Positions 14,292-22,309 of a stretch of DNA of 64,000 bases are shown here, in pieces. The position numbers were made by a program, and so were the translations under genes. The notes beneath the pieces were generated by a model that was not told where the DNA came from, searched no databases, and saw only the letters and a program-made list of their open reading frames with translations. Origin of the DNA: Bryobacter sp. CoA8 C33 (lineage in GTDB: Bacteria > Acidobacteriota > Terriglobia > Bryobacterales > Bryobacteraceae); NCBI GenBank assembly GCA_019931185.1, contig JAINDK010000023.1, positions 62,001 to 126,000 of the forward strand, read 5' to 3'. Positions within the stretch are counted from its first letter, which is position 1; every line of letters starts with the position of its first letter.

Positions 14292-14752
14292 GTAAGTGTT
14301 CCTTCAAACATCAGGTAATGGCTCTGTTCCATGCCGAGGCGGCGATAGGCTTGCTGGGCGGTAAGGTTGGTGTTTTCGACGTAAAGGCGAAAGCCGCAGC
14401 AATTTGACGAGGCGGCCAGGGACCGGACGCCCTCGTACAGGCTGCGATAGACGCCTTGGCCGCGCCACTCAGGAAGTACATAAACACTCTGGATCCACCA
14501 GAATACCTTGTTGCGCCAGTCACTCCACTCAAATGTGATCATGAGTCCACCCACGGGACTGCCGTCGATTTCGGCGACAACATAGAAGCCGAAATGGGGT
14601 TGGTTGAAGAGTCCCTGGACGCCGGCGTTGATCAGGCTGGAATCGAGACTAAGCTGTTCGGTCTCCCAGGCCATGGCCACGTTGAAAGCGGCAATGGCGG
14701 AGATGTCGCGCGGTTCAGCGCGACGGATGAGGATGCTGTTGGAGGATGGCAT
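14288..14752 (-). CDS. GNAT-family N-acetyltransferase
   Basis: A 154-aa GNAT enzyme that transfers an acetyl group from acetyl-CoA. It contains VAEIDGSPVGGLMI (strand 4), VYVLPEWRGQGVYRSL (the CoA pyrophosphate loop, Q/R-x-x-G-x-G/A type) and ENTNLTAQQAYRRLGM, the usual C-terminal signature. I chose the ATG at 14752 (MPSSNSILIRRAEPRDI); the longer open frame upstream runs antisense-like through cobA-hemD and lacks homology. It overlaps the end of the cobA-hemD gene by 38 bases and the next gene by 4. The substrate is unknown; it is carried in a tetrapyrrole operon with no obvious biochemical link. Confidence 0.85.
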   Translation of the reverse strand: MPSSNSILIRRAEPRDISAIAAFNVAMAWETEQLSLDSSLINAGVQGLFNQPHFGFYVVAEIDGSPVGGLMITFEWSDWRNKVFWWIQSVYVLPEWRGQGVYRSLYEGVRSLAASSNCCGFRLYVENTNLTAQQAYRRLGMEQSHYLMFEGTLT

Positions 14753-16163
14753 CGATGATTCCCGTGGTGGTGTGAGGTTTCGCTTCGACGGAAGGCTGGA
14801 CGCCATGCAGCAGAAGAGTTTGTGTTGTGATCGGGCCGATCGAGGCGATGCGATAACGGTGAATCGCCTCGGGCGGATTGAGGGCCAGAAAGTTCTTGAC
14901 GGTGGAAGAACTGGTGAAGGTGATCCAATCGGCTTCCGGTGCGGGGCCGGAATCCGGCACGACCGTGCGGTAAGCTTCGGCGATTTCAACGACGGCGCCC
15001 TGCGCGAGCAGGGCCTGAGGGACTGTGTCGCGGGCGGAGGCGGCGCGAGGGATGAGAACGCGTTTACCGGCTAGCGGGAAGCCGGCCAGCGCCGAGAGGA
15101 GACTTTCGGCGACATACTCGGCGGGAAGCACATCGACCTTGAGGTGCATGTCTTCGATCGCCCGGCGCGTGGCGGGGCCGATGGCGCAGATCCGGGCGCG
15201 GAGCGCACGCAGGTCACGAGGGGACTGGCGCAGGCGGGTGGCAAAGGACTCAACGGCATTGACGCTGGTAAAGATGAGCCAATCAAAGGACTCGAGCTTG
15301 GCGATGGCCTGATCGAGGGACTGCCAGGAGGAGGGGGGAGCGATGGCAATGGTTGGGTACTCGAGCACTTGAGCGCCCAAGGCTGTAAGTTGGTCGGCCA
15401 TGTCGCGAGACGCTTTCAGCGCCCGCGTAACGGCAATGCGGACGCCGTGCAGAGGAAGGCGCTCATGCCAGTTGAGCCTGGCGCCGAGTTGCGCGACTGG
15501 GCCAATGATGATCATGGCGGGGGCGAGGATCTTCTTGGCGGCGAGGGAGGAAATCGTGCCGACGACGGTATGTTGCTCCGGGCGTGTCGCCCAGGTGACA
15601 GCCGCGGCTGGAGTATCGGCGGGGCGGCCGGAGGCAATGAGCGCGGCGGCCAGTTCCGGATAGTGGAAAGCGCCCATGAAGATCGCGAGTGTATCGACGC
15701 GAGCCACTTTGGACCAATCGATTGAGTCCGGATGATGGCCGGTGAGGAAGGCGACGCAACTGGAATAGTCGCGGTGGGTGAGTGGGATGCCAGCATAGGC
15801 GGCGGCGCCGATTGCCGAGGAGATTCCCGGCACGACTTCAAAAGGAATACCGGCGGCGGCGAGAGCTTCGCATTCCTCGCCCCCACGGCCGAAAAGATAA
15901 GGGTCGCCGCCCTTCAGCCGGACGATGCGCCGCTGTGAGTGGGCGAGATCGATCATCAGAGAGACGATGTCTTCCTGGGGAACGGAGTGATTGTCGCGAA
16001 CCTTGCCGACATAGATTTTTTCGGCCCGGGTGGCGAGGCGAAGTGCCTCGGGGCTGGCGAGATGGTCATAGAGAACGACGTCGGCGGACTCGAGGAGAGC
16101 CTTGGCTTTAAGGGTGAGCAGGTTGGGGTCGCCGGGGCCGCTGCCGACAAGATAGACCTTCAC
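14715..16163 (-). CDS. cobA-hemD: Fused uroporphyrinogen-III C-methyltransferase / uroporphyrinogen-III synthase
   Basis: A 482-aa bifunctional enzyme. Residues about 1-240 are an SAM-dependent uroporphyrinogen-III methyltransferase (VGSGPGDPNLLTLKA, RLKGGDPYLFGRGGEE, GIPLTHRDYSS and the PAMIIIGPVA end). Residues about 245-480 are uroporphyrinogen-III synthase (ITRALKASRDMADQLTALGA-type opening, FTSVNAVESF, FTSSSTVKNF). It closes hydroxymethylbilane to uroporphyrinogen III and methylates it to precorrin-2, the precursor of siroheme and cobalamin. It follows hemC with a 4-base overlap. The same operon lacks the oxidase/ferrochelatase needed to finish siroheme. The fused arrangement is known from several phyla. 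Confidence 0.93.
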   Translation of the reverse strand: MKVYLVGSGPGDPNLLTLKAKALLESADVVLYDHLASPEALRLATRAEKIYVGKVRDNHSVPQEDIVSLMIDLAHSQRRIVRLKGGDPYLFGRGGEECEALAAAGIPFEVVPGISSAIGAAAYAGIPLTHRDYSSCVAFLTGHHPDSIDWSKVARVDTLAIFMGAFHYPELAAALIASGRPADTPAAAVTWATRPEQHTVVGTISSLAAKKILAPAMIIIGPVAQLGARLNWHERLPLHGVRIAVTRALKASRDMADQLTALGAQVLEYPTIAIAPPSSWQSLDQAIAKLESFDWLIFTSVNAVESFATRLRQSPRDLRALRARICAIGPATRRAIEDMHLKVDVLPAEYVAESLLSALAGFPLAGKRVLIPRAASARDTVPQALLAQGAVVEIAEAYRTVVPDSGPAPEADWITFTSSSTVKNFLALNPPEAIHRYRIASIGPITTQTLLLHGVQPSVEAKPHTTTGIIDAILQQHPHPSR

Positions 16164-19139: not shown

Positions 19140-19338
19140 TATTCTCAGTATAGGGTGTCCAAGCTAAAGATTCCCTGCCTAGGGCCGAATATGGATTGAG
19201 GAAAGTCAGTTGCGTTCAAAGTCGGTAACGAAATGGCGATCGGACTCTGGCAGTGAAAATGCAGGGCAGGATCATGTGACGCTGCATCCGCTGAACTACA
19301 GCCGAAAAATTCTCGGGTTAAGTGTGGAACCGAAGAAG

Positions 19339-20520
19339 ATGAAGATGACACTCGACCCGAAGCGAACCGGCAAAGACGCCTCTTTCCTGGAATATCGCCT
19401 GAGGCAATTGATAGCCGGGCAGGACGATGCGATTGGTCAGATTGTAAACATCTTCCAGATGTTTACGACCGGCTTAAACTCCCCGGGCCGGCCGGTTGGG
19501 AGCTTCTTGTTTCTTGGACCAACGGGTACGGGAAAGACAAGGCTGGTTGAGGCAGCGGCGGAATGCCTGCTGAGACGGCCAAGTCCCATCAACAAGATCG
19601 ACTGTTCAGAGTTCCAGCACAGCCATGAGATTGCCAAACTGATTGGGAGTCCGCCGGGGTACCTAGGGCATCGGGAAACGCATCCGGTACTGAGTCAGGA
19701 AATGTTGAACCAGTACTGGACGGACGATATGAAGCTGAGTTTTGTCTTGTTCGATGAGATCGAAAAGGCAAGTGATGCACTGTGGAACCTGCTGCTGGGG
19801 ATTCTCGACAAGGGCGTATTGACATTGGGGGACAACCGAAAGGTTGATTTTTCGCGCGCGATGATTTTCATGACCAGCAATCTTGGGGCAGCTGAGATGA
19901 GCCGGATCGGTGATCCCAAAATGGGATTCGCGCGTGCTCTGGGGGGGGAGAAACTGGCGGATGCGGAGTCGGCCCGGCAGGAGAAAAAGCAGAACCGGAC
20001 GGGTCTAGAGGCAGCGCGAAAGAAATTCACGCCGGAATTCATGAACCGTTTGGACAAGATTGTGGTGTTCAAGAATTTGTCGGACAAAGATCTGAGGCGG
20101 ATTTTGGACATTGAACTGGCAATCTTTCAGCAGCGGTTGCTGGCTGGGGCGAATGCGAGTAAATTTGTATTCGCGGTAACGGAGGAGGGCAAGCAGTTTC
20201 TGCTTGAGCAGGGGGTCGACCCCCGTTATGGTGCCCGGCATTTGAAGCGGAGCATGGAACGGTTGCTGGTTCAGCCGCTTTCGAATCTGCTGGCGACCGG
20301 ACAGATTGAGGATGGCGATTTGCTGCGGATCGATTTTGACCCGCGGGAACGGGAATTGAGCTTCACCAAAGAGGCAGAGGGGCTGCCGATCGGCACGATG
20401 TTCGAGATGATCGACACGAGTGTACCGGTGCAACTGGCGACTCTGGCGGCCGTGGTCAGCCAGGAGACACCCCGGGCAAGCGCTGCGGTTCCGCTGCAGA
20501 AACTGAAGGGGAAGATCTAG
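19339..20520 (+). CDS. Stand-alone ClpB-D2/Clp-type AAA+ ATPase
   Basis: A 393-aa AAA+ protein corresponding to a single Clp/Hsp100 D2-type module. Walker A GPTGTGKT is at about residues 60-67, a substrate-gripping pore loop GYLG at about 107-110, Walker B FVLFDE at about 135-140, sensor 1 MTSNLG, an arginine finger in EFMNRLDK and sensor 2 in GARHLKRSME. It lacks the Clp N-domain, the D1 ring and the ClpX zinc finger, and I see no clear ClpP-docking loop. It may unfold or remodel a specific protein. The start is uncertain: ATG at 19339 (GGAA upstream) or 19345; a longer in-frame extension to 19210 lacks domain content. It is divergent from the heme operon. Confidence 0.8.
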   Translation: MKMTLDPKRTGKDASFLEYRLRQLIAGQDDAIGQIVNIFQMFTTGLNSPGRPVGSFLFLGPTGTGKTRLVEAAAECLLRRPSPINKIDCSEFQHSHEIAKLIGSPPGYLGHRETHPVLSQEMLNQYWTDDMKLSFVLFDEIEKASDALWNLLLGILDKGVLTLGDNRKVDFSRAMIFMTSNLGAAEMSRIGDPKMGFARALGGEKLADAESARQEKKQNRTGLEAARKKFTPEFMNRLDKIVVFKNLSDKDLRRILDIELAIFQQRLLAGANASKFVFAVTEEGKQFLLEQGVDPRYGARHLKRSMERLLVQPLSNLLATGQIEDGDLLRIDFDPRERELSFTKEAEGLPIGTMFEMIDTSVPVQLATLAAVVSQETPRASAAVPLQKLKGKI

Positions 20521-20527
20521 ATTCCGG

Positions 20528-22276
20528 TCAGGCGGCGCATTCCGCGCGACCCAACTGTAGGCTGAATTGTTCGTTGTCACCCCAGTCCATGTAAAAGTCA
20601 GGATCGAGTTCCATCGGCTTGGCTAAGTCGGCGGTCAGGGCGCGGAAAGTTTCGACCTTAAACCGCATGACGTATTCGCGGAAGAGTTCATCCGGTTGGC
20701 GGTTGTCGATGTAGTGAGCGATGACTCGCTGGACGGCTTCCGGGGCAGTTTTGGCGGGAATACTCTGGATCGTGAAGCCATATTTGAGCATGCCTTCGCG
20801 GTCCTTGCCTCCCCCGAGAAGCATCTGATAGTAGGGGACTTCGCGGCCACCGATTTTACGCACATTGCCAAAAAAACCGAAGTCGCCCAGCCAATGCTGG
20901 CCACAGGAATTGGGGCAACCGCTGGCCTTGATGTGAAGGCGGCGTACCAGGGGGTCGGGGTGATTGGCGACGGTGTGGCGCAAGGCTTCACCCAAGCTCA
21001 TGGTCTTGGTGATTCCGAGATTGCAACTCCAAGCGCCAGGGCAGGTGACGATATCGTCGATCTCATCGGCGCCAGCCTCGGCAAGCAGAGCTTGCTTGAG
21101 AATGGCGAAAACTTCCCGCAGACTCGACTGTTGGACCCAGGCGATTGAAAGGTTCTGGTCGATTGTAATCCGAACAAGTCCGTCGCCGGCGGCACGGGCG
21201 ACTTGGGCCACGGCGCGCATTTGCTGAGAAGTCATGTTGCCCTGGGGAACCTTGATGGTGACGACGGTGTTGCCGGCGTGGCGTTGGGGACGGACATTGG
21301 TGCGAAGCCATTGCTCGTAGTCGGGCGGCAAGTCAGGGAGCACATTGAGCAGGGGCTCACGGCCCAATGGGCGGGGGCTGGAGGAATATGCGCCGAAATC
21401 TTCCGGAACGAAAGAGGGTGCCTCGATCCCGCCGTTGGCGAGGATGTCAGCATATTCAATTTCGACCTGCTCCTTGAACCAGTCCCAGGAACGTTCGCGA
21501 ATGATGAATTTCAGGCGGGCCTTGTGTTTGTTCTTGCGGTTGCCGTATTTGCCAAAAATCCGGATCACTGCTTCGCAGCGATTGACCAGGCGTTCGGCGG
21601 GAAGGAACTCATCGAGCACTTGCGCCTCGCTTGGCAGGGGCCCGAGACCGCCTCCGGCAACAACGCGGAAACCTGGTTTGCCATCTTGAATTCGAGCACT
21701 GAAACCGAGATCGTGAATGCCGCCAGCCATACAATCCCCGGCACAGCCGGAGAAGCTGATTTTGAACTTGCGGGGGAGATTGTCGGTCAATTCCTTATGG
21801 AGGAAGGCGTAAGCGGTCTGGCGGACGTAAGGCGAGATGTCGAATAGTTCGTCTGGACAAATGCCGGCCAGGGGGCAGCCGGTGACGTTACGGACAGTGT
21901 TGTAGCAGGCCTCACGGGTGGTGAGGCGCACGGCGGCTAACTCGGTGAGCAGGTCGGGCACCACGGCAAGGGGCACGAAGTGGAACTGCATATTCTGGCG
22001 CGTGGTGAGGTGTCCGCGTCCACCAGCATACTTGTCGGCGATGTCGGCCATCCGCTCCATTTGAGCGGAAGTAGCGAGGCCACCGGGGACTTTCGTGCGG
22101 ATCATCTGGACGTTCGGCTGGCGCTGACCATAAACACCACGCCGCAGGCGGAAAGCACGAAACTCGTCGTCAGTCAGCTTGCCGGAAAGGTAGTCATTGA
22201 CTTGGGAGCGGAACAAAGAGATGTCAGCGGCGACCGTCTGGTCAAATTGCAGTTCGACGGATGTTGGGGTCTGCAT
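20528..22276 (-). CDS. Siroheme nitrite/sulfite reductase
   Basis: A 582-aa ferredoxin-type nitrite/sulfite reductase with the two-fold NIR_SIR/ferredoxin-like repeat. The C-terminal half has the canonical Fe4S4-siroheme ligands: CPGAWSC (about C412 and C418) and ASGCPNSCGQHW (about C454 and C458). The N-terminal half also carries the same spacing, TGCPLAGIC (about C134 and C140) and SGCAGDC (about C178 and C182), where many family members have no cysteines. The enzyme reduces nitrite to ammonium or sulfite to sulfide by six electrons. I chose the ATG at 22276 (MQTPTSVELQF). The siroheme precursor genes lie just upstream on the same strand, separated by the AAA gene. Nitrite versus sulfite cannot be decided. 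Confidence 0.88.
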   Translation of the reverse strand: MQTPTSVELQFDQTVAADISLFRSQVNDYLSGKLTDDEFRAFRLRRGVYGQRQPNVQMIRTKVPGGLATSAQMERMADIADKYAGGRGHLTTRQNMQFHFVPLAVVPDLLTELAAVRLTTREACYNTVRNVTGCPLAGICPDELFDISPYVRQTAYAFLHKELTDNLPRKFKISFSGCAGDCMAGGIHDLGFSARIQDGKPGFRVVAGGGLGPLPSEAQVLDEFLPAERLVNRCEAVIRIFGKYGNRKNKHKARLKFIIRERSWDWFKEQVEIEYADILANGGIEAPSFVPEDFGAYSSSPRPLGREPLLNVLPDLPPDYEQWLRTNVRPQRHAGNTVVTIKVPQGNMTSQQMRAVAQVARAAGDGLVRITIDQNLSIAWVQQSSLREVFAILKQALLAEAGADEIDDIVTCPGAWSCNLGITKTMSLGEALRHTVANHPDPLVRRLHIKASGCPNSCGQHWLGDFGFFGNVRKIGGREVPYYQMLLGGGKDREGMLKYGFTIQSIPAKTAPEAVQRVIAHYIDNRQPDELFREYVMRFKVETFRALTADLAKPMELDPDFYMDWGDNEQFSLQLGRAECAA

Positions 22277-22281
22277 AAACC

Positions 22282-22309
22282 TTGTATACCCTATCAAGAT
22301 TACTATGAT
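22282..22309 (+). promoter_or_regulatory. Candidate promoter for the Oar-like receptor
   Basis: A TTGTAT at 22282-22287 and a TATGAT at 22304-22309 with 16 bases between them resemble a housekeeping -35/-10 pair; the -10 is good and the -35 poor. It would give a leader of about 90 bases ahead of the receptor start at 22408. Confidence 0.3.

Follow-up and report, generated by a model that had tools for sequence, protein, structure and literature searches.

A one-chain siroheme reductase from an acidobacterium with a putative second metal site in its N-terminal half

The window analysed here, a 64,000-nucleotide stretch of the genome of Bryobacter sp. CoA8 C33, encodes a siroheme reductase of 582 residues (20528–22276, minus strand, as are all reductase coordinates below). 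Its two pseudo-symmetric halves each carry the cysteine pattern C-x5-C ... C-x3-C. We favour, with moderate confidence, a reading of this protein as a one-chain, NirA-type assimilatory sulfite reductase that joins a catalytic siroheme-[4Fe-4S] centre to an ancestral, non-catalytic cluster in the N-half. The computations establish the homology of the ligand positions, their joint presence or absence among relatives, their inferred ancestry, the decay of the mate residues in the opposite half and the genome context. The reductase is a variant inside a known superfamily, and its N-half metal site is putative.

The length of the product was counted from an ATG at 22276; a TTG start at 22297 is also possible and would lengthen the reading frame. 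Both features that define the superfamily were found, namely two NIR_SIR_ferr and two NIR_SIR Pfam domains in one chain, and a C-half C-x5-C ... C-x3-C motif together with a basic anion-binding set in the N-half. Pfam and a profile comparison place the N-half, a ferredoxin-like half domain plus a NIR_SIR domain, at residues 40–290 (21407–22159) and the C-half at residues 318–545 (20642–21325). Eleven cysteines are present in total (124, 134, 140, 178, 182, 234, 412, 418, 454, 458 and 580). Every NCBIfam model stayed below its cut-off, the best being the NirA family NF007126 (263 vs. 523 bits). Ferredoxin-nitrite reductase NF007125 scored 236.2 bits against a curated cut-off of 594, CysI TIGR02041 118.8 against a curated 756.55, DsrA 50.5 against 392.85 and DsrB 70.6 against 341.5. 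Identity as CobG was rejected on the same grounds (TIGR02435, 152.1 vs. 234.8 bits). Pfam detected in the reductase neither the inserted ferredoxin domain that marks DsrA and DsrB nor a fusion to F420H2-oxidase and ferredoxin domains of the Fsr type, and both halves belong to a single open reading frame.

The first-pass annotation had placed eight cysteines in the two halves, and all eight positions proved correct. Profile comparison of the N-half (40–290) with the C-half (318–545) returned an E value of 8.4e-33 and set C134 (21875–21877), C140 (21857–21859), C178 (21743–21745) and C182 (21731–21733) opposite C412, C418, C454 and C458, respectively. Because all four stand in register with the C-half ligands at this E value, the N-half pattern exceeds what chance would give. 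An independent genome whose reductase is 87% identical (L031) carries the same four N-half cysteines, which rules out a sequencing error. Chance cysteines and sequencing error were thus both rejected, on the register of the halves, on L031 and on the joint retention described below.

An AlphaFold2 model of the reductase (pLDDT 89.3, pTM 0.90) was used for a structure search, in which residues 35–282 matched the sulfite reductase domain of Methanocaldococcus jannaschii Fsr (Z 21.9, 2.2 Å over 231 residues); chains outside the siroheme reductases and IspG scored low Z values and were not used. In sequence, residues 46–193 of the window N-half align with residues 341–483 of the Fsr chain. Counting from the ends of this alignment, rather than from a printed one, Fsr R355, R388, R423, C428, K460, K462 and C472 fall on window R60, R93, R129, C134, K170, K172 and C182, where the Fsr numbers, including that of the siroheme-bridging C472, come from PMC10229431. 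As judged by this alignment, the window N-half has a complete Fsr-like residue set with the same spacing. Fsr itself is a homodimer of half the size with F420H2 oxidase and ferredoxin domains attached, none of which the window protein has, and on an actinobacterial NirA-type sequence (L152) it aligns with the C-half instead (341–485).

Relatives were drawn from 93 genomes of the phylum with a match, sequences being taken from 30 loci and 20 further stretches, and from 111 plasmid records with a match, 16 of which were fetched among the 60 matches listed. After removal of near-identical sequences, those shorter than 440 residues, L001, L112 and L130–L140, 154 rows were aligned; the main set of 151 rows (the window and 150 non-identical relatives) excludes L013, L028 and L153. 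The listing of clades and states omits L013 and L028 (partial), L130 (CysI-like), L131 (partial), L132, L133–L140 (NirB-like) and the window copies L001 and L112.

The C-half motif is invariant: C412-x5-C418 (21023–21043) and C454-x3-C458 (20903–20917) are present in all 151 rows. The N-half core, defined as C134, C178 and Cys or His at 182, is complete in 107 rows, absent from 37 and partial in 7. Among the complete rows, 31 have four cysteines, 56 read C-x-C-C and 20 read C-x-C-H, the His at 182 in these 20 being compatible with another metal. Residue 140 is not Cys in 120/151 rows, which counts against a four-Cys cluster, and the 178–182 spacing is x3 in 71 of the core rows and x4 in 36, while the C-half spacing is fixed. 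The C-x-C-H rows and the losses at position 140 show that the family does not, as a rule, have a strict four-Cys cubane. A three-Cys [4Fe-4S] cluster, a [3Fe-4S] cluster or zinc would each fit some of the rows.

The core is held by all three haloarchaeal rows fetched (L146, L148 and L150, each CDCC at 134/140/178/182), and Thermus oshimai (L141) reads CSCH at these positions. It is absent from Deinococcus L147, Cytobacillus L149, Streptomyces L152, proteobacterial L143–L145 and, by alignment, tobacco nitrite reductase. The full four-Cys set is kept in 15/15 rows of one acidobacterial clade and 4/4 of another. In six relatives at 80–87% identity, C134, C178 and C182 are present in 6/6, C140 in 2/6 and Ser140 in 4/6 (counts of cysteine positions and of close relatives include the window twice, as WIN and L001). 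The earlier suggestion that the arrangement might be normal for an acidobacterial subfamily was therefore close but too narrow, because haloarchaeal rows have the core and Thermus has it as Cys/Cys/His; on the same evidence, a uniquely acidobacterial oddity was rejected. Some acidobacterial clades have the four-Cys set as their normal state; in the clade of the window reductase it varies. Absence of the N-half cysteines from close homologues, which the annotation had named as the outcome that would count against it, was found for C140 only.

The remaining three positions come and go together, the core being all-or-none in 144/151 rows. Independent pairs were compared on a quick LG+G4 tree of the 151 rows, built with the four cysteine columns excluded and with the far rows on long branches. 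Pairs differing at 134 changed in the same direction at 182 (C/H) in 6.7 of 7 cases on average (median p 0.016); 178 and 182 (C/H) agreed in 7.7 of 8 (p 0.008) and 134 and 178 in 5.8 of 7 (p 0.031). The control C234 had no association with 134 in the independent-pair test on this tree, and C140 was uncoupled from 134 (1.2 of 7 pairs). With the 22 far rows removed and a mixture model applied to the 129 nearer rows, 2 to 4 supported independent changes were left, in the same direction and with no power. Two-state models of the core gave lnL -40.7 with gain and loss both free and -41.1 under loss only, an equally good fit, against a far worse -50.5 under gain only. For the ancestor of all non-CysI rows the posterior of the core comes to 0.93; it reaches 0.996 at the tail-bearing clade and exceeds 0.9999 at Bryobacterales. 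At the root including CysI it is 0.14, a point against ancestral retention as regards CysI. The halves being products of a duplication, the core would most naturally have been retained from the duplicated ancestor. The N-half core is genuine and conserved and has been lost repeatedly, and a second metal site there is supported, at the level of sequence comparison, by ligand homology, joint retention or loss, and inferred ancestry.

These patterns also bear on whether the N-half motif could be vestigial, a metal-free relic decaying at lineage-specific speeds. Loss of C140 within the genus, relaxed 178–182 spacing, repeated block losses and the seven partial rows all agree with such decay. A neutral relic should, however, disappear residue by residue, and the 144 all-or-none rows, the persistence of the core over long divergence (including the haloarchaeal rows) and the four cysteines in every row of two clades all speak against it; we regard a relic as rather unlikely.

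Whether a second site could turn over substrate depends on the residues around it. R60, R93 and R129, the anion-binding arginines of the catalytic site (within 21890–22099), are Arg in 151/151 rows; of the accompanying lysines (21761–21769), K170 is Lys in 151/151 and K172 in 149/151. By pseudo-symmetry, the lining of a second pocket would come from the C-half mates of this basic set. The profile comparison assigns T340, D373 and D408 (within 21053–21259) to R60, R93 and R129, and these mates are not basic: position 340 is Thr in 98/151 rows, 373 is Asp in 58 or Glu in 43, and 408 is Asp in 133/151. The remaining C-half mates of the basic set, R446 and H448, both vary across the 151 rows. Two functional centres, which the first-pass annotation had named as a possibility, are not what these residues suggest, because the substrate positions of site 2 are Thr340, Asp373 and Asp408 rather than Arg; two catalytic centres were accordingly rejected as unlikely. 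The non-basic mates, together with the drifting spacing of the N-half cysteines, point to one working and one non-working centre, and site 2 is probably non-catalytic.

A non-catalytic second site might still hold a complete siroheme-[4Fe-4S] unit exactly as in DsrA, which would make the window protein a single-chain DsrAB. The N-half does contain the full ligand set at Fsr spacing, and DsrAB provides a precedent for a structural siroheme (PMC10229431). We nevertheless consider this unlikely, as the site-2 residues for the siroheme carboxylates and the substrate are acidic or variable, and the siroheme-bridging position is His in 20 rows with drifting spacing around it.

The same His rows raise the question of a structural zinc site built from two or three cysteines together with His or some other residue. 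Cys/Cys/His at 134/178/182 in these 20 rows would suit zinc, as would His at residue 140 in 12 of the 56 three-Cys rows. A fourth ligand is, however, not obvious in 18 of those 56 rows, which have Leu, Ala or Ile at position 140, and a screen of alignment columns for co-variation with the core yielded no extra ligand candidate. The positions also correspond to [4Fe-4S] ligands in every characterised paralogue. Zinc is, in our estimate, distinctly unlikely.

An electron-transfer relay, in which the second cluster would hand donor electrons to the catalytic centre, is very improbable: Fe-S clusters often serve as electron relays and Pfam finds no obvious donor domain in the window reductase, but the block loss of the core in several lineages that retain every catalytic residue indicates that it is dispensable for catalysis, and the maize ferredoxin-sulfite reductase complex (PDB 5h92) functions without an N-half site.

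Under the favoured reading of an assimilatory enzyme with an ancestral second cluster, the window protein would be a one-chain, NirA-type sulfite reductase with ferredoxin as its presumed donor. Its catalytic centre would be of the usual kind, with a [4Fe-4S] cluster on C412, C418, C454 and C458, of which C458 would bridge to siroheme, and with sulfite bound by R60, R93, R129, K170 and K172 from the opposite half. C134, C140, C178 and C182 would form the pseudo-symmetric ancestral site and carry a second iron-sulfur cluster, whose metal type and assembly are inferred. This cluster would be non-catalytic because the basic residues needed to complete its pocket are gone from the C-half, and it would most likely steady the interface between the halves, comparable to the structural centre of DsrAB. 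In most relatives, the N-half site would have three ligands (Cys, Cys and Cys or His), and several lineages appear to have lost it en bloc.

The genome context agrees with a role in assimilation. One protein of the window genome matched the reductase query, and a NIR_SIR search gave two matches that lie in one frame and represent its two halves. The genome also has a cysD-cysN-cysH-tauE locus, and none of its scanned molybdopterin proteins scored above the curated cut-off for a nitrate reductase. Given a sole siroheme reductase, the cysD-cysN-cysH genes and no nitrate reductase above cut-off, an assimilatory sulfite reductase for cysteine synthesis is the most likely and best-supported role, and nitrite reduction is disfavoured by this context. 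Genes for HemA, HemC and a uroporphyrinogen-III methyltransferase fused to HemD (SUMT-HemD; 14715–16163, minus strand; Pfam and NCBIfam), which belongs to the siroheme/heme route, lie about 2 to 6 kb from the reductase. In Thermus oshimai, siroheme, PAPS reductase and ATP sulfurylase genes come after the homologue (40% identity), and a four-plus-four-Cys relative with a C-terminal TusA domain (L178) stands in a string of PAPS reductase, ATP sulfurylase, PLP-dependent synthase and reductase genes. Clustering of the neighbours in 110 loci and the window revealed as recurrent the hem/SUMT genes, a CcsB-type protein and a ClpB-like ATPase, and, beyond the items given here, no recurrent partner gene bearing on function. 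The ATPase, of the ClpB/ClpA D2 AAA type, adjoins the reductase in the window (19210–20520, plus strand, 436 residues); its cluster occurs in 30/111 stretches, and it scores far below the cut-off for full ClpB.

Among characterised enzymes, the window reductase resembles Mycobacterium tuberculosis NirA (1zj8), a sulfite/nitrite reductase that depends on ferredoxin, over the whole fold (Z 39.1 over 475 residues), as well as in its one chain, two halves, C-half cluster motif and the positions of a Tyr-Cys pair. The two are 26% identical over the aligned part, and the N-half of the mycobacterial enzyme differs in lacking the cysteines, with GSPLAGE and SGLQD in their places. Escherichia coli CysI, which works with CysJ, shares the Pfam domains, the C-half motif and the anion-binding residues, but its row (L156) has T/L/P/D at 134/140/178/182. 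The window protein would resemble DsrAB, as described in PMC10229431, in having a cluster site in each half, of which one would work and the other would not; unlike DsrAB, it is a single chain rather than two subunits.

The same article derives assimilatory sulfite reductases from a duplication and fusion, with one of the two copies later losing its cluster motif; in its account both halves were once working centres, and DsrAB retains a structural one (PMC10229431). Loss of the N-half cluster motif is given there as an assimilatory trait, and in the window protein the motif is present. A search of titles and abstracts, in which subscription journals are thinly covered and which is weak evidence for that reason, found no paper that describes a second cluster in the N-half of assimilatory enzymes. 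The window reductase may be a living intermediate between two sulfite reductase classes, and a broad group that keeps the motif would be the missing intermediate that makes the duplication-loss scenario of PMC10229431 testable. For much of the family, iron counts and models of electron transfer based on the plant and E. coli enzymes may not apply.

A more far-reaching joint reading, which we hold to be improbable, would make the protein a fused single-chain DsrAB with one catalytic and one structural siroheme-[4Fe-4S], representative of a broad clade and handing its sulfur over to carriers. If true, it would be a living evolutionary intermediate whose second site has been whittled from four to three to no ligands across bacteria and archaea, and the tail cysteine and the TusA, ThiS and rhodanese fusions described below would deliver reduced sulfur to carriers and not as free sulfide.

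C-terminal tail cysteines are known in DsrC and PAPS reductase. The reductase of the window likewise ends in a tail, probably flexible (pLDDT below 50), with a conserved cysteine three residues before the end (C580, 20537–20539; rows and model). The tail motif [GAPSD]EC[ASGI] occurs in 130/151 rows, with or without the N-half core, and by analogy the C580 tail is a possible sulfur-transfer arm. Several relatives extend beyond it. L187 (3600–5951, minus strand), a four-plus-four-Cys reductase, has a C-terminal TusA domain (E 4.9e-15) and belongs to a string of genes leading from sulfate to cysteine; its acidobacterial genome is a single contig of 2.4 Mb. L188 (3744–5759, plus strand) and L186 have a fused ThiS-type carrier with a terminal GG, and haloarchaeal L146 (2002–4539, plus strand) has fused rhodanese domains. 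In L014, L113 and L142, the GECAG tail motif is followed by domains of about 130–150 residues with weak HEPN/PaREP1 matches only; the 15-row acidobacterial clade with this long GECAG-plus-domain form is the one with four N-half cysteines in every row.

M. tuberculosis NirA contains a bond between Tyr69 and Cys161. This pair, at chain positions 80 and 172 of 1zj8_A, corresponds in the window reductase to Y49 (22130–22132) and C124 (21905–21907), which are kept in 148/151 and 142/151 rows, respectively; by analogy, a Tyr-Cys crosslink may form here as well. A further observation concerns the provenance of one row: L108 (CALQCC020000006.1) is titled Bordetella parapertussis, but its reductase groups inside Bryobacterales, and it is apparently a mislabelled bin.
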